A DNA stretch of 64,000 nucleotides from an uncultured Oscillospiraceae bacterium (GTDB taxonomy: Bacteria; Bacillota; Clostridia; Oscillospirales; Acutalibacteraceae), in NCBI GenBank assembly GCA_948471205.1, contig CAOKRT010000006.1:44966-108965 (forward strand), given 5' to 3'. This document shows positions 10,634 to 40,858 of this stretch, in pieces; the stretch's first letter is position 1, and every line of letters begins with the position of its first letter. The position numbers and the translations under genes were made by a program. The notes beneath the pieces were generated by a model. It saw only the letters and a program-made list of their open reading frames with translations, ran no database searches and had not been told where the DNA came from.

Positions 10634-11341
10634 TTATTTGCAGAATTTATGACTGCCGATCACCTTTGTTACAGGCCGGGAATGCATAAATTTATCATTG
10701 GTTTTTGCCGGATTGAAATAATATATGGCGCCTCCGGTCGGGTCCCATCCGTTCAGCGCATCTTTGGCGGCCTTTCTGGAAGTATCAGAAATAGGCTGAT
10801 ACCAGTTGCTGTCGTTTACACAGGAAAAAGCACCGTTCTGATAAACAACACCGCTTATTGAATCGGGAAAGGAACTGTGTGCAACTCTGTTGAGTATTAC
10901 TGCACCTACCGCAACCTGCCCTTCATAGCTTTCTCCCCTTGCTTCTGCCGAAATAACCTTTCCGAGAAGCTGGACATCCGCATCACTGTATGCACCGGAG
11001 CCTGATGAACTGCCGCCGCTCAGACCGAGATAAAGCAGCGTTGCCTGACCTACAATACCGTCTGCCGTTAAGCCTACATTTCTTTGGAAACTTTTAACGG
11101 CCTTTTGTGTGTTTGAACCGAAAATACCGTCTACATTGTCTTTATAATAGCCAAGCTCCTGAAGCTTTTTCTGAATTCTTCTGACCTCATCACCACTTGA
11201 ACCGTATCGTGAAACCGCATAAACTGCGTTTTCCTTATAATAAAGCTCATATCCTGCGATTCCTGCCATTGTACCGCCTGCAGCGATTGCAACAACAAGC
11301 AGAAAAATATAAAAATTCCGGAAGGCTTTATAAACTGTCAT
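10634..11341 (-). CDS. sleB: Cell wall hydrolase of SleB type (spore cortex lytic enzyme family)
   Basis: 235 aa from the ATG at 11341, which has AAAGGAGAG upstream; a longer in-frame start at 11371 is less likely. Order: an N-terminal membrane segment (FLLVVAIAAGGTMAGIAGY), a PG_binding_1 repeat (SSGDEVRRIQKKLQELGYY...), a Ser/Gly linker, then a Hydrolase_2 domain (LLGKVISAEARGESYEGQVAVGA, catalytic Glu in AEARGE). It is a lytic transglycosylase-type enzyme acting on spore cortex or peptidoglycan outside the membrane. Downstream of a small membrane-protein gene by 30 bases. Confidence 0.88.
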   Translation of the reverse strand: MTVYKAFRNFYIFLLVVAIAAGGTMAGIAGYELYYKENAVYAVSRYGSSGDEVRRIQKKLQELGYYKDNVDGIFGSNTQKAVKSFQRNVGLTADGIVGQATLLYLGLSGGSSSGSGAYSDADVQLLGKVISAEARGESYEGQVAVGAVILNRVAHSSFPDSISGVVYQNGAFSCVNDSNWYQPISDTSRKAAKDALNGWDPTGGAIYYFNPAKTNDKFMHSRPVTKVIGSHKFCK

Positions 11342-11371
11342 ACCAATCTCTCCTTTTATCAAATTAAACAA

Positions 11372-11638: not shown

Positions 11639-11983
11639 CGTTTGCCTAATCCTTTCAAAATTATACAAATAGTGTTGGATTTTCCTTTGTAAAATATTCA
11701 TGTTTTTAAAAATGATTTTTAGCTATTTTTGCCACAAAATTTATCTTGACAGGCGTATAAAATAACAATTTGTATATCAACTTTTACAGTTTAAAATTGT
11801 TCAAAACTTTGTTGAAAATGTTAAAAACCCCTTTCAAACATCGCATATTCAGCCATTTTTTACTGTTCAAAAGTATTTTAAAAGATAATTTTTCAAGTTT
11901 TGAATAGTTTACACAGAGTTTTCAACAATTTGTAAAGTTACAAATTATTACAAAATGTTTTAGCTATTTTGCTATTTTTAATA
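11639..11983. promoter_or_regulatory. AT-rich intergenic region with a cluster of variant DnaA-box motifs
   Basis: This gene-free stretch contains five exact TTWTNAACA motifs. Three lie on the minus strand almost head to tail: 11798-11806 (TTTTGAACA), 11810-11818 (TTTTCAACA) and 11819-11827 (TTTTTAACA), followed on the plus strand by CCCC. One more is on the minus strand at 11864-11872 (TTTTGAACA) and one on the plus strand at 11919-11927 (TTTTCAACA). The same 9-mer fills the dnaA-dnaN gap. A function in titrating or loading DnaA, or in controlling the flanking genes, is inference. Confidence 0.5.
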
Positions 11984-12012
11984 TTCACTATTGACACAAA
12001 ATATGTTATAAT
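11984..12012 (+). promoter_or_regulatory. Likely promoter of ogg
   Basis: TTCACT, 17 bases, TATAAT with an extended -10 TG (TGTTATAAT). A nearby TTGACA at 11991-11996 is out of register. Confidence 0.5.
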
Positions 12013-12046
12013 TCAGATAGAAAATAAAAAGGAAATTATACTGACA

Positions 12047-12868
12047 ATGATAATGACCGAAGATAAAAACAGTATTATTTTAAAGGACATAAAATGTCTG
12101 AATCTTGCACTTACGCTTGACTGCGGACAGGCTTTCAGATGGGAAAAACAAAAAGACGGTTCCTGGAGCGGAGCCGCATACGGAAAATTTTTAAATATCA
12201 GGCAAAACGACGCCGGCGATTTTATTTTAAAAACCACAGCGGCTGATTTTGAAAAAGTATGGAAGCATTATTTTGATTTAAACAGAGATTACGAAAACAT
12301 ATGCAGCAAACTTAAGGAAGACAGCCTTGTTTCTTCTACGATTGATGCATATTACGGTATACGTATTTTGAATCAGGACCCGTGGGAAGCGCTTGTCTCT
12401 TTTGTAATAAGCCAGCAGAACAATATAAAGCGCATTAAGGGCATTATTAAAAAACTTTGCTGTACATATGGGAAAGAAATCTGTGACGGATGGTATTCTT
12501 TTCCCGATGCAGAAACACTCAGCCGTTTATCTGTTTCTGATTTTGAAGCCCTGGGCACAGGATACAGAGGAAAATATTTAAAAAAGCTTGCTGATGACAC
12601 AGTAAGCGGCAAAATTAACCTTTATGAAATTAAAAATATGCCATTGGAACAGGCAAGAACAGCTTTGCTGGACATTTACGGCGTTGGAATAAAAGTGGCA
12701 AACTGTGCTTTGCTTTTCGGTTTCCGGTTTACAGAATGCTTTCCTGTTGACGTTTGGATGAAGCGGGTGCTGGATTTTTACCCTGACGGTCTGCCGGAGT
12801 GCTTCAAAGGATACGAAGGAATTGCCCAGCAGTATCTTTTCCACTGGGCACGAAATAATTTAAAATAA
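12047..12868 (+). CDS. ogg: 8-oxoguanine DNA glycosylase (Ogg1 family)
   Basis: 273 aa from the ATG at 12047. It removes 8-oxoguanine from DNA (base excision repair). The N-terminal OGG_N domain is seen in LALTLDCGQAFRWEKQKDG. The HhH-GPD domain includes SFVISQQNNIKRI, the hairpin YGVGIKVANCALLFGF with the catalytic Lys, and CFPVDVWMKRV with the catalytic Asp. This is the eukaryotic-like Ogg1 type found in Clostridia rather than MutM. Followed by rsmE after 13 bases. Confidence 0.93.
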   Translation: MIMTEDKNSIILKDIKCLNLALTLDCGQAFRWEKQKDGSWSGAAYGKFLNIRQNDAGDFILKTTAADFEKVWKHYFDLNRDYENICSKLKEDSLVSSTIDAYYGIRILNQDPWEALVSFVISQQNNIKRIKGIIKKLCCTYGKEICDGWYSFPDAETLSRLSVSDFEALGTGYRGKYLKKLADDTVSGKINLYEIKNMPLEQARTALLDIYGVGIKVANCALLFGFRFTECFPVDVWMKRVLDFYPDGLPECFKGYEGIAQQYLFHWARNNLK

Positions 12869-34684: not shown

Positions 34685-35182
34685 TTATATAATTTCGTAA
34701 TCAATTTTTTCTTCTTTTTTAATAACTTCCTGTCCTTCTATTTTATCAATAAAATGTTTAAATTCTGTTCCGAATGCATTTCCGTCTTCAAATATATCAA
34801 GCAATGGCTGCAAAACAAACCGCCTTTCAAACATACGAGGATGCGGAACCGTAAGATTTTTTGTATGTGTATTAAAATCTTCTGCCATAAGCAGATCCAC
34901 ATCAAGAATTCTTGGTCCGTTTTTTATTCCTCTTTTTCTTCCGAACGCACTTTCTATTCCAAGGCACAAACCAAGCATTTCATTCGGTTCAAGCTGACTT
35001 TCAACAAGCACATTGCAATTATAAAAATTCTGCTGTCTTGCATAACCTACAGGCTCTGTTTCATAAATTCCAGACCGTATCAAAACATCTGTATACGGAG
35101 TCAGATTAATGGCTTCAATGCAATTTTCAATATTTTCTTTTCTGTTTCCTATATTGGTACCGATACCTAAAATGTATTTCAT
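34685..35182 (-). CDS. folK: 2-amino-4-hydroxy-6-hydroxymethyldihydropteridine pyrophosphokinase
   Basis: 165 aa. HPPK motifs: LGIGTNIGNRKENI, ETEPVGYARQQNFYN, GRKRGIKNGPRILDVDLLMAED and VPHPRMFERRFVLQPLLDI. It transfers pyrophosphate from ATP to hydroxymethyl-dihydropterin in folate synthesis. Last gene of the fol operon, 3 bases after folB. Confidence 0.96.
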   Translation of the reverse strand: MKYILGIGTNIGNRKENIENCIEAINLTPYTDVLIRSGIYETEPVGYARQQNFYNCNVLVESQLEPNEMLGLCLGIESAFGRKRGIKNGPRILDVDLLMAEDFNTHTKNLTVPHPRMFERRFVLQPLLDIFEDGNAFGTEFKHFIDKIEGQEVIKKEEKIDYEII

Positions 35183-35185
35183 AAA

Positions 35186-35548
35186 TTAACTCCTGCTGCG
35201 TGAAATCTGCACACCCATATATTCAAATTCTGCCGAAACCGGTGCCTGCGGTTTTTTTAAGGTTAAATCTATTTGCATAACTGCAGGATATTCGTTAAAC
35301 ACTGCATCTGCCACAACCTGTGCACAGCGTTCCAGCAAATCATATTTTTCTGCAGTAAATACTCTGCGTACTGTTTTAACAACCTTTGCATAACTGACTG
35401 TATCATTTACATTATCACTGAAACATGCTTTGCTTATGTCAACGGAAATTGCAATATCAAAAATAAAATTCTGTCCCTGTTCTTTTTCTTCGGGATTAAC
35501 GCCGTGATATGCAAAAAGCTTTAAGCCTTTTATTAAAATTTTATCCAT
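35186..35548 (-). CDS. folB: Dihydroneopterin aldolase
   Basis: 120 aa. DHNA features: ILIKGLKLFAYHGVNPEEKEQG with the catalytic Glu/Tyr, DTVSYAKVVKTVRRV, LLERCAQVVADAV, and LTLKKPQAP with the conserved Lys. It cleaves dihydroneopterin to hydroxymethyl-dihydropterin. Lies 8 bases after folP and 3 bases before folK. Confidence 0.95.
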   Translation of the reverse strand: MDKILIKGLKLFAYHGVNPEEKEQGQNFIFDIAISVDISKACFSDNVNDTVSYAKVVKTVRRVFTAEKYDLLERCAQVVADAVFNEYPAVMQIDLTLKKPQAPVSAEFEYMGVQISRSRS

Positions 35549-35556
35549 AATATTTA

Positions 35557-36360
35557 TTAAACCCTTTCGTTTTTTAAAGCTTCTGCCATTCTTATTCCCT
35601 GTATTTCATTTTCCACATCATGAAGCCTGATAATATCTGTTCCGCCGAAAACAGCAACCGTATCTGCAGCTATATTTCCATAAATGCGCATTTTCGGATT
35701 TTCCTGACCTGTTCCTTCTTTAATGACACGTTTTCTGCTTGTTCCGAGAAGAAGCGGAAAACCGGCTTTTTTATAAAGACTTATATTACTGATTAACTGC
35801 ATATCCTGCTTTCTTGTTTTTCCGAAACCGATTCCCATATCAAAACAGATTTGTTTTTCATTTATTTTCTGTTTTTTTATTTCATTTAAAGAAAAATCAA
35901 AAAATTTTCGCACTTCTTCTGCGCCGCCGTCACCGTTATGCATTATAATCCACCCAGCACCGCTCTTTTTGACGATTTCTGACATTTCAGGTGATATAAC
36001 ACCGGAAACATCATTAATGATGTTTACACCGTTTTCTAATGCTTTTTCAGCTACATAAGGATAATATGTATCAACCGATACAGGAATGCTTATTTTGCCG
36101 TTTAAAGCTGTCAGAACAGGTTTTAATCTTGCCCATTCTTCTTCTGCAGAAACGGGAATATGACCCGGACGTGTTGACTGCGCACCGATATCTATTATAT
36201 CAGCTCCCTGTTTTTCCATTAAAACGGCTGTTTTTACTGCATTTTTTGCGTCAAAATTGTCGCCGCCATCTGAAAATGAATCCGGCGTAACATTTACGAT
36301 TCCCATAATCAGAATTTTTTTTCCGTATTCTATTTTATATTTTCCGCAATTCCAAATCAT
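35557..36360 (-). CDS. folP: Dihydropteroate synthase
   Basis: 267 aa from the ATG at 36360 (AAAGGA upstream; an in-frame TTG at 36381 overlaps folE and is less likely). DHPS motifs are MGIVNVTPDSFSDGGD, DIGAQSTRPG, SVDTYYP, INDVSG, FDMGIGFGKT and LLGTSRKR. It joins p-aminobenzoate to the pterin, the sulfonamide target. Third gene of the operon after folE. Confidence 0.96.
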   Translation of the reverse strand: MIWNCGKYKIEYGKKILIMGIVNVTPDSFSDGGDNFDAKNAVKTAVLMEKQGADIIDIGAQSTRPGHIPVSAEEEWARLKPVLTALNGKISIPVSVDTYYPYVAEKALENGVNIINDVSGVISPEMSEIVKKSGAGWIIMHNGDGGAEEVRKFFDFSLNEIKKQKINEKQICFDMGIGFGKTRKQDMQLISNISLYKKAGFPLLLGTSRKRVIKEGTGQENPKMRIYGNIAADTVAVFGGTDIIRLHDVENEIQGIRMAEALKNERV

Positions 36361-36370
36361 ATTTTTTCCT

Positions 36371-36940
36371 TTATTTATCAAGAAGCGCCAGCACTTCTGC
36401 CCTTGTTCTCATATCTGATCTCATAATGCCTCTTAGTGCCGAAGTCTGTGTTTTACTTCCTGGAGCCTTTGCCCCTCTGATTGTCATGCACATATGCTCC
36501 GCTTCAAGAATAACAGCAACACCTTTTGGCTGCATATTTTTTTCAAGAAAATCTGCAATATCATGTGTTAATCTTTCCTGCACCTGTGGTTTTTTTGCAA
36601 AATTATCAACAATTCTTGCAAGCTTTGATAATCCTATAATTTTATTATTACTTGGTATATACGCTATATGTGCTTTTCCCACAAACGGAAGCAAGTGATG
36701 CTCACACATAGAGGAAAAAGGAATATCCCTTACAATTACCATATCATCATTTGAACTTTCATCAAAAAATTTAAGATGTTTTTCGGGATTTTCACTTAAT
36801 CCTGCAAATATTTCTTCATACATATTTGCAACTCTTTTCGGTGTTTCCAAAAGACCTGCCCTTTCGGGATTTTCTCCTACCGCAATAAGAATTTCTCTTA
36901 CTGCCTTTTCTATTTTTCTTTTATTTTCTTCTGTAATCAT
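36371..36940 (-). CDS. folE: GTP cyclohydrolase I
   Basis: 189 aa. Family motifs: [16 protein letters not shown], the zinc-binding [42 protein letters not shown] and a second zinc Cys in [16 protein letters not shown]. It opens GTP to dihydroneopterin triphosphate, the first step of folate synthesis. Lies 24 bases after the degenerate LCP gene, so the whole set 37.9-34.7 kb may be one transcript. Confidence 0.97.
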
Positions 36941-37879: not shown

Positions 37880-38112
37880 AATAATATCACCTTCTTAAAA
37901 TTCAATAACATTATACATTAGTTATAAAATCAAAACAAGATGATTTTATATATATAATTTTAATATTATATTAATTATATATTATATATCTATATAATAT
38001 TTATAAATAAGTATTGAATATAATTTAAAACAATGATATAATAAAACATATGCTGGATTTTTCCACAATTAAAATATTTTTTGTTAAAAATGATTAAAAT
38101 AAAGGAGAAATA
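37880..38112. promoter_or_regulatory. Very AT-rich region upstream of dnaA
   Basis: About 230 bases, nearly pure A/T from 37945 to 38050. It holds the dnaA promoter TTGAAT (38014-38019), 17 bases, TATAAT (38037-38042, extended TG). One consensus-type DnaA box TTTTCCACA lies at 38059-38067 and one variant box TTTTTAACA on the minus strand at 38082-38090. Both boxes lie downstream of the predicted transcription start, so DnaA autoregulation is plausible. Confidence 0.65.
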
Positions 38113-39504
38113 ATGGATACATATAACGATGTATGTGAAGAAGTTTTAAAATACTGCAAAACAAAAACTTCTTCAAATGCTTTTAAATTATGGCTTTCGG
38201 AAATCACTGTTACAGGATTTGAAAACAATACTTTTACTTTATTTTTACCAAGTTCTTTCAAAAGAAAAATTGTTATTGATACATATGATTCTCTTCTCAA
38301 TGAAGCATTTGAAAATGTGATGGGCTTCAGTGTAAATATAAATTATGATTGCCCAGATGAACAAAAGTCTATTTTTGATAATACGCAATCAGATTTGAAA
38401 AGGGATCTTGAAACAGCAAAAAATGTTAAAAATAATATTGAAAAATCCGATAATCTGCCAATAGAGCAGTTTACCTTTGATACTTTTATTGAAGGACCAT
38501 CAAACAGATTTGCTTACCGTGCAGCAATGGCTGTTGCCGATAATCCCGGCGGCACAATGAAAAATGAAAATTCCTATAATAATTACAACCCTCTTTTTAT
38601 TTACGGTAAATCCGGGCTGGGAAAAACCCATATTTTAAATGCCGTTTGCTTTGAAATAAGAAAAAATTATCCTGCAATGAGAATTCTTTACGTTCGTTCT
38701 GAAGATTTTGTTAATGAATTTATTGCAGCGCTCGGAAATAAAACGGTTGATGAATTTCATGACAAATTCAGAAATATTGATGTTCTTTTAATTGACGATA
38801 TTCAGCTTATCGGCGGAAAAGACAGAACAGAAGAGGAATTTTTCCATACTTTCAATTCTCTTATTGAAAACGGAAAACAGATTGTGTTGACATCAGACCG
38901 CCCGCCGAAAGAAATAAAAAGCTTAACGGACAGGCTATGCACCCGTTTTGAACAGGGACTTCTTGCCGATATTCAGTCACCGGAATATGAAACAAGATGC
39001 GCTATCATAAAAAGAAAAGCACAGCTTCTTAATTTTGAAATTCCCAATTCCGTTGTAGAATACATAGCTGAAAAAATAAAAACAAATATCAGACAGCTTG
39101 AAGGCACAACGAAAAAAATTTATGCCATGAGCAAGCTTTCCGGAACAACACCTTCTATTCCACTTGCACAAAGGGTAATTAAAGATGTTACAACAGATAC
39201 ACAGCCTATTCCCGTTACCATTCAGAAAATAGTGGAAGAAGTAAGCAGAACGGAAGGTGTTTCCGTTGATGACCTTTACAGTAAAAAGCGCAGGGCAAAT
39301 ATTGTTAATGCAAGAAAAATTGCAATTTATGTTATAAGAGAAATAACAAACTGCAGCTACGAAATGATCGGAGAAAATTTCGGTTTGAATCATTCTACTA
39401 TTATTTATAATATCAATCAGCTAACGGAAAGCATGGAAAAAAATTCAAAACTTGCAAGAAAAGTTGAAGATATGATTAATAATATCAAAGAAGATAATTA
39501 TTAA
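38113..39504 (+). CDS. dnaA: Chromosomal replication initiator DnaA with altered box-recognition signature
   Basis: 463 aa. Domain I is about 1-85, a short linker to about 115, and the AAA+ domain about 115-335. That domain has Walker A GKSGLGKTH (165-173), Walker B LLIDDIQ (225-231) and the sensor region LTSDRPPKEIKSLTDRL. Domain IV is about 370-463 and begins SVDDLYSKKRRANIVNARKIAIYVIREIT. Its DNA-reading helix normally reads GGRDHTTV; here it is GLNHSTI (424-430). One residue is missing, the Arg is Leu and the Asp is Asn. The start has AAAGGAG upstream. DnaA boxes downstream are changed in parallel (see findings). Confidence 0.97.
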   Translation: MDTYNDVCEEVLKYCKTKTSSNAFKLWLSEITVTGFENNTFTLFLPSSFKRKIVIDTYDSLLNEAFENVMGFSVNINYDCPDEQKSIFDNTQSDLKRDLETAKNVKNNIEKSDNLPIEQFTFDTFIEGPSNRFAYRAAMAVADNPGGTMKNENSYNNYNPLFIYGKSGLGKTHILNAVCFEIRKNYPAMRILYVRSEDFVNEFIAALGNKTVDEFHDKFRNIDVLLIDDIQLIGGKDRTEEEFFHTFNSLIENGKQIVLTSDRPPKEIKSLTDRLCTRFEQGLLADIQSPEYETRCAIIKRKAQLLNFEIPNSVVEYIAEKIKTNIRQLEGTTKKIYAMSKLSGTTPSIPLAQRVIKDVTTDTQPIPVTIQKIVEEVSRTEGVSVDDLYSKKRRANIVNARKIAIYVIREITNCSYEMIGENFGLNHSTIIYNINQLTESMEKNSKLARKVEDMINNIKEDNY

Positions 39505-39745
39505 GTTTTAAACAAATTATCAGTTATTAACAATAAAGTTTCTAATGGAACTGTTCAAAATAAAATTTATAAACATTTTGATAAAATTATAAACATTTGC
39601 GTGTTTATAAAAAAGGATAAAAAAACAGCGTAAAATAAAGCGATTTATCAGTTTTGAACAATTTGAACACCCCTTACTATTACTACTATAACTATCATAA
39701 TAATAATGAATGAAAATTTTTCATTTTCTTGAACGGAGGAACATT
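39505..39745. other. Putative oriC in the dnaA-dnaN gap: variant DnaA boxes and DnaA-trio-like unwinding site
   Basis: Seven exact TTWTNAACA motifs. Plus strand: 39506-39514, 39524-39532, 39567-39575, 39587-39595 and 39652-39660. Minus strand: 39552-39560 and 39602-39610. An eighth copy with one mismatch (ATTTGAACA, 39661-39669) directly follows the last. CCCC (39670-39673) and the trio block TTA-CTA-TTA-CTA-CTA (39674-39688) come next. No TTWTNCACA box is present. The 16-mer TTATCAGTTNTNAACA occurs at both ends of the array (39517-39532 and 39645-39660). Position and layout fit a Bacillus-type origin unwinding region. Confidence 0.75.
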
Positions 39746-40858
39746 ATGAAATTTACCTGCAATACGAAAAAATTAAATGAAGCCTGCTCCAATGTAATAA
39801 AAGCAGTAAGCCAGAAAGTAACAATTCCGACAATTGAAGGTATTTTAATTGAATGCGGAACAGAAATACTCAGTTTAACAGGATATGATTTTGAATTCGG
39901 AATAACAACCACACTGAATGCAACGGTAACGGAGCCGGGTTCTATTGTTATAAATGCAAAAATAATGTGTGATATTATTCGTAAACTTGCAGCAGACGTT
40001 GTTACTTTTGAAACAAGCGGAAATTCCGTTTCTATTATTTCAGGTGCTGCACAGTATAATATTACAGGAATAGATGCAGATGATTATCCGGAGCTTCCAA
40101 GTGTTTCCGGCGGATATCCTTTGTTTATTGAAAAAAAACTTCTTCATAAAATGGTTATGCAAACGCTTTTTGCTGTTGCCGAAAATGAAAATGCAAAACC
40201 TGTTCATACTGGCCTTAAATTTGAAATGACCTTGAATCAACTCAGATTAATTGGTGTGGACGGATACAGACTTGCTATTTCTACAGAAAAAATCAATTAT
40301 GAAGGAGAAGATTTTTCTTTTATTGTTCCTAAAAAAACAATCAGAGAATTAATTAAAATTACCGGTGTGGACGAAGAAGAAAAAATTTCAATCAGTGTAG
40401 GAAAACGCCATATTATTTTTGAAATAGGGGATTACAGTATTATAAGCCGTCTTCTTGACGGAGATTTTCTTGATTATAATGCTGCTGTTCCGAAAAACAG
40501 TTCAACAACAGTGGTTGTAAATACAAGAGAGGCTGTTTTATGTATTGAAAGAGCGATACCGGTTGTTGAAAACAATGCAAAAAATCCTATAAGATGCCTT
40601 TTTGATAAAAATGAAATGAGAGTTTCTACCGTTTCTGCAAGAGGAAGAGTTGTAGACTATACAAAAGCAGAAATAAAAGGGGAAAGAGTGGAAATCGGCT
40701 TTAATTCAAAATATATGCTTGATGCGCTTAATGCAGCAGATACGGATGAAGTAAGAATAGAACTCGGAGGTCCGGTAAGCCCGGTTAAAGTATTGCCGTT
40801 AAACGACGAAAGTTTCTTATTCTTGGTTCTTCCTATGAGGTTAAAAAGTGAAATTTAA
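39746..40858 (+). CDS. dnaN: DNA polymerase III beta sliding clamp
   Basis: 370 aa from the ATG at 39746 (CGGAGGA upstream). Three clamp domains. The start MKFTCNTKKLNEACSNVIKAVS and the NAKIMCDIIRKL, GVDGYRLAIS and LPMRL C-terminal pocket motifs are typical. It holds the replicative polymerase on DNA. Follows oriC and overlaps the next gene by 11 bases. Confidence 0.97.
   Translation: MKFTCNTKKLNEACSNVIKAVSQKVTIPTIEGILIECGTEILSLTGYDFEFGITTTLNATVTEPGSIVINAKIMCDIIRKLAADVVTFETSGNSVSIISGAAQYNITGIDADDYPELPSVSGGYPLFIEKKLLHKMVMQTLFAVAENENAKPVHTGLKFEMTLNQLRLIGVDGYRLAISTEKINYEGEDFSFIVPKKTIRELIKITGVDEEEKISISVGKRHIIFEIGDYSIISRLLDGDFLDYNAAVPKNSSTTVVVNTREAVLCIERAIPVVENNAKNPIRCLFDKNEMRVSTVSARGRVVDYTKAEIKGERVEIGFNSKYMLDALNAADTDEVRIELGGPVSPVKVLPLNDESFLFLVLPMRLKSEI

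Follow-up and report, generated by a model that had tools for sequence, protein, structure and literature searches.

The DnaA initiators of Escherichia coli and Bacillus subtilis read the 9-mer DnaA box TTATCCACA (consensus TTWTNCACA) with the helix-turn-helix of domain IV. In the available parts of the cited papers, the base-specific contacts are assigned to helix-5 residues 432–435 and 438–439 (PMC5043019) or to D433, H434, and T435 (PMC7561715), and include the base pair at box position 6, in other-strand numbering (PMC6727663). An altered box consensus (TTCAC core) is also known from Epsilonproteobacteria, where helix-5 changes have been put forward as the cause; there, however, position 5 is T, residues 435, 438, and 439 are suspected, and residues 433–434 are called highly conserved in the accessible part of the report (PMC5043019). 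Boxes with A at position 6 (A6) were reported earlier, from sequence, in Mollicutes, as TTWTC(C/A)ACA (PMC3322544) and as TTATTAACA, with two copies in M. hominis (PMC2751442); the accessible parts of these two papers do not tie them to a DnaA residue. In B. subtilis, the basal unwinding system (BUS) consists of two co-oriented tandem boxes, a short GC spacer, and DnaA-trio repeats (PMC8287927, PMC10721633, available parts), and oriC-proximal DnaA-box clusters also exist outside oriC (Okumura 2012, as covered in the available part of the review PMC5295017).

The DNA analysed here (the window, a stretch of 64,000 nucleotides from an uncultured Oscillospiraceae bacterium) encodes an initiator of the same family, with a helix-turn-helix and 9-mer boxes that share TTWT and ACA with those of E. 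coli and B. subtilis, but N426 stands in place of D433 and A replaces C at box position 6. The features of the dnaA–dnaN locus were as follows.

38059..38067, plus strand: single canonical-type box TTTTCCACA, from motif scan; its end lies 45 bp upstream of dnaA
38113..39504, plus strand: dnaA, 463 aa; Pfam PF00308, PF08299, and PF11638 (Bac_DnaA, Bac_DnaA_C, and DnaA_N); domain IV aligned with E. coli and B. subtilis
39382..39402, plus strand: GLNHSTI codons (residues 424–430), with N426 at 39388–39390
39506..39514, plus strand: putative DnaA box TTTTAAACA, slot s1, from motif scan, relatives aligned
39524..39532, plus strand: putative DnaA box TTATTAACA, slot s2, from motif scan, relatives aligned
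39552..39560, minus strand: putative DnaA box TTTTGAACA, slot s4, from motif scan, relatives aligned
39567..39575, plus strand: putative DnaA box TTATAAACA, slot s5, from motif scan, relatives aligned
39587..39595, plus strand: putative DnaA box TTATAAACA, slot s6, from motif scan, relatives aligned
39602..39610, minus strand: putative DnaA box TTATAAACA, from motif scan
39652..39660, plus strand: putative DnaA box TTTTGAACA, B1, the first tandem box of the unwinding module, from motif scan, relatives aligned
39661..39669, plus strand: ATTTGAACA, B2, the second tandem box of the unwinding module, aligned in relatives
39670..39698, minus strand: CCCC spacer, then DnaA-trio-like repeats (3'-GAT-5' units, bottom strand), by eye
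39746..40858, plus strand: dnaN; the ORF opens at 39710, and the ATG at 39746 was adopted as the start

A motif scan of the 241-bp dnaA–dnaN gap bore out what had been read from the sequence alone: TTWTNCACA had no copy there, and TTWTNAACA had seven exact copies (39506+, 39524+, 39552-, 39567+, 39587+, 39602-, and 39652+), so that position 6 was C in none and A in seven of these boxes. The chance expectation, previously estimated by hand as well below one, came to 0.25 when the gap sequence was dinucleotide-shuffled 20,000 times, with a maximum of 4 and no shuffle reaching seven. The accompanying statement that C is near-universal at position 6 was too strong, given the Mollicutes boxes cited above. 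B1 at 39652 directly adjoins B2 at 39661, and CCCC and trinucleotide repeats come next. Because this arrangement of tandem boxes, spacer, and DnaA-trios at 39652–39698, recognized by eye and aligned in relatives, matches the unwinding module of B. subtilis, the gap looks like a conventional B. subtilis-type unwinding origin with unconventional boxes, both tandem boxes being of the GAACA type versus the CCACA type in the BUS as described in the available parts of its reports. Cumulative GC skew reverses at dnaA, and dnaN is followed by an S4-domain ORF, recF, and gyrB, as read from the ORFs. Upstream of dnaA, a minus-strand gene run at 34685–36940, which resembles folate biosynthesis when its ORFs are read by eye, occupies the place of the usual rpmH neighbourhood.

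The window protein has the AAA+ domain and C-terminal helix-turn-helix of bacterial DnaA initiators at Pfam cut-offs. GLNHSTI at residues 424–430, with Asn (residue 426) for the family Asp, was found as first described. In HMMER alignments, N426 corresponds to E. coli D433 and H427 to H434, and N426 pairs with the D of GGRDHTT in both E. coli (1J1V) and B. subtilis (8BTG); it lies immediately N-terminal to the predicted recognition helix (427–443). Instead of the E. coli D433-H434-T435 signature, the window has N-H-S. On these alignments, the protein is a DnaA with a variant recognition helix, and many of its relatives vary there too.

For comparison, we collected DnaA loci at the levels of genus (a search of 80 genomes), family, and order. 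The 349 loci yielded 263 distinct DnaAs after removal of loci that were not dnaA, duplicates, genes running off the locus end, and unreadable signatures; the near relatives listed were uncultured Clostridia, Eubacterium sp., and Oscillospiraceae and Ruminococcaceae MAGs. D433-H434 was the commonest pair (156 of 263 DnaAs), and H, N, T, Q, and E were also found at 433 and Y and R at 434. In one genome (locus L160, genome G098), the dnaA reading frame was discontinuous in the locus. The sequence-only reading had taken three signature changes together, of which the Asp-to-Asn substitution tracks the boxes and the other two do not. The one-residue loop deletion was rejected as a cause, since D433 relatives and M. 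tuberculosis DnaA (3PVP; FGRDHTT, with a loop equal in length to the shortened loop of the window) share it, and the N433 species L056 and L199, which lack the deletion, are A6-biased too. The Arg-to-Leu change was rejected likewise, as Leu at 432 is unique to the window among the 263 DnaAs. By this comparison, both changes stand outside the switch, the box change being tracked by neither.

Within the genus, the gaps of 67 species (the genus and its nearest neighbours) align, and nine box slots were comparable; the genus tree was built from DnaA minus domain IV. The aligned oriC slots contained 104 A6, 8 C6, and 5 G6 in the 16 N433 species, 98 A6 and 89 C6 in the 25 D433/H434 species, and 91 A6 and 45 C6 in the 22 H433 species. 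Six of the eight C6 slots of N433 species are the B2 slot in one clade; with B2 excluded, 14 of 16 N433 species had no C6, versus 7 of 51 others. A phylogenetic regression over the 67 species gave an N effect of -0.46 (se 0.14, p 0.002). In the order tree, dnaN adjoined dnaA for 233 DnaAs, of which 196 had two or more boxes and 195 entered the regression. With gap A+T as a covariate, the effect of N/T/Q433 on the C6 share was -0.51 (se 0.11, p 4e-6). Among nine independent order-level pairs of N/T/Q versus D, a mean of 5.4 went as predicted, 0.0 went the opposite way, and 3.6 were tied (median sign-test p 0.06); the corresponding values for N alone versus D were 5.2, 0.1, and 3.7.

The oriC boxes alone nevertheless overstate the switch, because D/H433 relatives share AACA boxes and A+T weighs strongly. 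In several D433 species, every oriC gap box is A6 (e.g., 8:0 A:C in L210), and AACA at oriC was therefore discarded as a stand-alone mark of Asn. The alignment of relatives proposed in the sequence-only reading, with A+T now in the model, thus upheld the co-occurrence of Asn with TTWTNAACA, whereas AACA proved non-diagnostic and Leu was confined to the window.

A second dense stretch of AACA boxes was found in the window at 11798–11927, 26 kb from dnaA. It is intergenic (11702–11968), with a SleB-type hydrolase gene and a 109-aa ORF on one side and an 8-oxoguanine glycosylase-type gene on the other.

10634..11371, minus strand: cell-wall hydrolase (SleB-type) gene, PF07486 and PF01471
11372..11701, minus strand: 109-aa ORF, 'ypeB-like' by position only, with no Pfam match
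11798..11806, minus strand: anchor box d1, TTTTGAACA, from motif scan
11810..11818, minus strand: d2, TTTTCAACA, from motif scan
11819..11827, minus strand: d3, TTTTTAACA, from motif scan
11864..11872, minus strand: second-cluster box TTTTGAACA, from motif scan
11919..11927, plus strand: second-cluster half 2 box TTTTCAACA, from motif scan
11969..12868, plus strand: 8-oxoguanine glycosylase-type gene, PF07934 and PF00730

Tandem boxes were present at this cluster in the 54 of 80 genus genomes in which it was read, 53 of them upstream of the glycosylase-type gene and one beside the 109-aa ORF. The site is thus a conserved oriC-proximal DnaA-box cluster outside oriC, like those of B. subtilis, and possibly a titration or regulatory site. 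Tandem pairs were scored without positions 5, 6, and 9, and the highest score defined the anchor pair; 50 of the 54 genomes had a readable DnaA signature. In all 50, d1 followed the DnaA residue: it had C6 in 15/15 D433/H434 and 16/16 H433 species, A6 in 15/15 N433 species and the one T433 species, T6 (TTTTCTACA) in the one E433 species, and the form TTTTCCACC, with its ACC end, in 2/2 R434 species, position 9 being A in 30 of 31 D/H433 species with H434. Many cluster loci had been fetched via motif hits allowing A or C, and 30 were taken by gene similarity alone; among the 26 of these 30 with a readable DnaA, N/T species had A6 in 13/13 and D/H species C6 in 13/13. The adjacent d2 was looser (C6 in 15/15 D and 14/16 H, A6 in 12/15 N). 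On the tree, the residue and d1 states need four changes each and match in 46/46 rows, with the E433 row and three off-tree species omitted. The strength of the d1 evidence is the specificity of the match and not the count of origins, because well-supported branches provide no more than two independent pairs. Five D/H species (L014, L023, L025, L030, and L088) have no C6 in oriC slots s1–s6 and B1 and still hold C6 in d1, which suggests that d1 reports the preferred base and that oriC tolerates weaker sites. One further assembly (G034, loci L385/L407) yielded no dnaA; from its cluster boxes, GAACA and GCACC, an NR-clade DnaA with N433 would be predicted.

We also counted box pairs within 30 bp, oriC included, in the 80 genus genomes, 67 of which had a readable DnaA signature; a reversed-pattern control gave 0–4 pairs per genome. 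The 17 N433 genomes contained 162 A-pairs and 5 C-pairs, and none had two or more C-pairs, whereas the 24 D433 genomes (117 A-pairs, 60 C-pairs) and the 22 H433 genomes (121 and 46, respectively) included 16 and 13 with two or more C-pairs. The window's genome (28 contigs, 98.9% complete) contained 14 A-pairs and one C-pair, and thus gave no sign of a competing origin built on paired canonical boxes. The protein and box changes co-occur at two separate loci and, for N433, genome-wide.

Two further substitutions come with box changes of their own. Species L155 carries Glu at 433, unlike the six N433 species that make up the rest of its clade, and it has T6 in three oriC slots (dnaA locus L155) and in d1 (cluster locus L354); at those three oriC slots, the six N433 sisters have A, apart from one sister with G at s6. 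In L044 and L049 (cluster loci L361 and L364), H434 is replaced by Arg in two separate lineages on the tree, and position 9 of their 15 aligned oriC slots is C in 10, T in 3, and A in 2. Since a change from A9 to C9 opposes the A+T bias, it argues against drift. In the H434 relatives L035 and L045, the last base of at least three boxes is other than A; position 9 was therefore already loose in that clade. Genome-wide ACC pairs, considered as a test of H434R, were dropped because the signal did not rise above background (3 and 2 in the two R434 genomes versus 0–6 in others). Outside the genus, the signal of H434R is weak in L071, an R434 species of another family with 3 of 5 boxes ending in ACA, and L272 and L275 are uninformative because they have no dnaN beside dnaA. 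In the latter two, dnaA is followed by an ORF that looks ftsY-like by eye, there are at most two box-like sites within 700 bp, and oriC is probably located elsewhere in those genomes.

Taken with the order regression, the aligned genus oriC boxes, and above all d1 (50/50), these data support the originally proposed match of D433-to-N with C6-to-A. We consider it very probable that the window holds a normal DnaA–oriC unwinding origin in which the specificity of domain IV shifted and the boxes followed. Residue 433 would set box position 6 (Asp or His with C; Asn, and also Thr and Gln, with A; Glu with T, in one species), and residue 434 would influence position 9 (His or Tyr with A; Arg with C, in two genus lineages).

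The most serious competitor, which we hold to be possible with odds somewhat against it, is that neighbouring residues (432, 434, 435, 439, or others) co-determine the switch and that 433 is one of several. Four N433 species (L121–L123 and L280) speak for it, keeping C6 boxes at C:A ratios of 4:1, 3:0, 3:1, and 4:0. The remaining six species of their group of 10 are D433 and have no boxes other than C6. Below 0.70 gap A+T, N433 species have 17 C6 boxes in all, 14 of them in these four, whose own gaps lie at 0.53–0.60. The four may not be one clade, and the pattern would correspond to one or two gains of Asn without a box change. Because these four retain CACA boxes, Asn433 is not, in this sample, sufficient everywhere for A6. 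Relatives with the same signature and normal boxes had been named beforehand as the observation to count against the match; these species come partway, but their signature, KNHTT, differs from that of the window. KNHTT itself was rejected as the reason, since other KNHTT species use A6 (A:C of 2:0 in L058, 3:1 in L064, and 2:0 in L324), and another residue may keep the C preference there. Y434 also often goes with N433, and the gap boxes of those species are 46 A and 0 C; within the genus, however, N with H434 and N with Y434 are both A6, and the N species L056 and L199 outside the genus, with undeleted loops, are A6-biased as well. Position 5 is G in 21/60 slots of N433/H434 species versus 10/191 of D433/H434 species, an observation that fits co-determination and may reflect a possible second preference of the N433/H434 initiators.

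Some C6 sites persist beside N433. In the N433 species of the NR clade, B2 keeps C6 (TTTTGCACC or TTTTACACC) in 6/6, and d2 keeps it (TTTTGCACC) in 3 of the 4 read. The half-2 box TTTTACACA is identical across D, NR-N, E, and R species where read. Either such retained sites (B2, d2, half 2, and the box at 38059) have another function, or an N433 DnaA still binds some C6. As a separate observation on half 2 (loci L350–L364), NR-N, E, and R species and several D species retain TTTTACACATAGTTTTCAACA or a closely similar sequence regardless of residue, and the window has GTTTACACA instead (about 11908–11928); the half-2 sequence may serve another protein or a promoter.

We regard it as unlikely that A+T mutation pressure alone made A6 out of C6, with neutral DnaA substitutions and an incidental association. 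Gap A+T is a strong predictor of A6 use among the 195 order species (p 5e-14), many D433 species in A+T-rich genomes have A6 oriC boxes, and the four C6-keeping N433 species have gap A+T of 0.53–0.60. However, the N/T/Q effect persists with A+T in the model. At gap A+T of 0.70–0.82, the A:C counts are 125:4 in N species and 163:101 in D species; below 0.70, they are 14:17 and 51:146, respectively. Moreover, d1 stays C6 in all 31 D/H species of the same genus, and the change from A9 to C9 with H434R runs opposite to the bias.

Even less probable, in our view, is shared ancestry, in which DnaA and the boxes changed a few times in coinciding lineages without functional coupling. N arose only 2–4 times within the genus, a number with which independent-pair sign tests cannot reach 0.05. 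The substitutions and the position-specific changes that go with them are nonetheless distinct (N with A6, E with T6, and R with C9), they recur at two loci 26 kb apart, and the order pairs agree in a mean of 5.4 of 9 with none opposed. It is highly improbable that the AACA repeats are bound by another protein or belong to a promoter and that the real DnaA boxes lie elsewhere, e.g., at the one canonical-type box upstream of dnaA (TTTTCCACA at 38059). Against this, the box slots align over 67 species, with many C6 in D/H species; two boxes border directly on CCCC and DnaA-trio-like repeats, an arrangement like that of the unwinding module in B. subtilis; the window's genome has 14 A6 pairs versus one C6 pair; and GC skew turns at dnaA.

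For the favoured reading, a shift in domain IV specificity followed by the boxes, a plausible chemical basis can be outlined. Classically, adenine is recognized by Asn and guanine by Arg. Domain IV would bind the changed boxes better: Asp433 would accept a bond from the amino group of C6, whereas Asn could bond adenine, and Arg434 would read the G opposite C9. In E. coli DnaA, the G opposite C6 stays DMS-exposed (PMC5043019, available part), which fits a contact from the C side, as an Asp–cytosine amino bond would be. A likely route has two steps. A+T pressure would have loaded oriC with tolerated A6 boxes, and a D/H-to-N substitution would then have made A6 preferred, with the leftover C6 anchor boxes being converted.

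A more far-reaching version, which we offer tentatively and to which we give less than an even chance, is that residues 433 and 434 form a small modular code (D/H for C6, N/T/Q for A6, and E for T6; H for A9 and R for C9), so that the initiator–origin pairs of sister species would be mutually incompatible, having been reached via oriC boxes that both tolerate. If so, neither sister's DnaA would be able to fire the origin of the other.

A6 boxes and helix-5 explanations were already known. Our literature search, with most subscription journals outside its scope, found no report that residues 433/434 and box positions 6/9 co-vary between species; such co-variation is new as far as that search reached. 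The DnaA–box interaction is generally regarded as almost invariant, and origin finding commonly begins with TTATCCACA; fixed-motif prediction may miss origins such as this one. Within one genus, the DNA-reading residues of an essential initiator have undergone several natural changes, matched at oriC and at a second locus. This makes it directly testable how an initiator and its origin can change together without cell death, and it offers candidate orthogonal DnaA–origin pairs.
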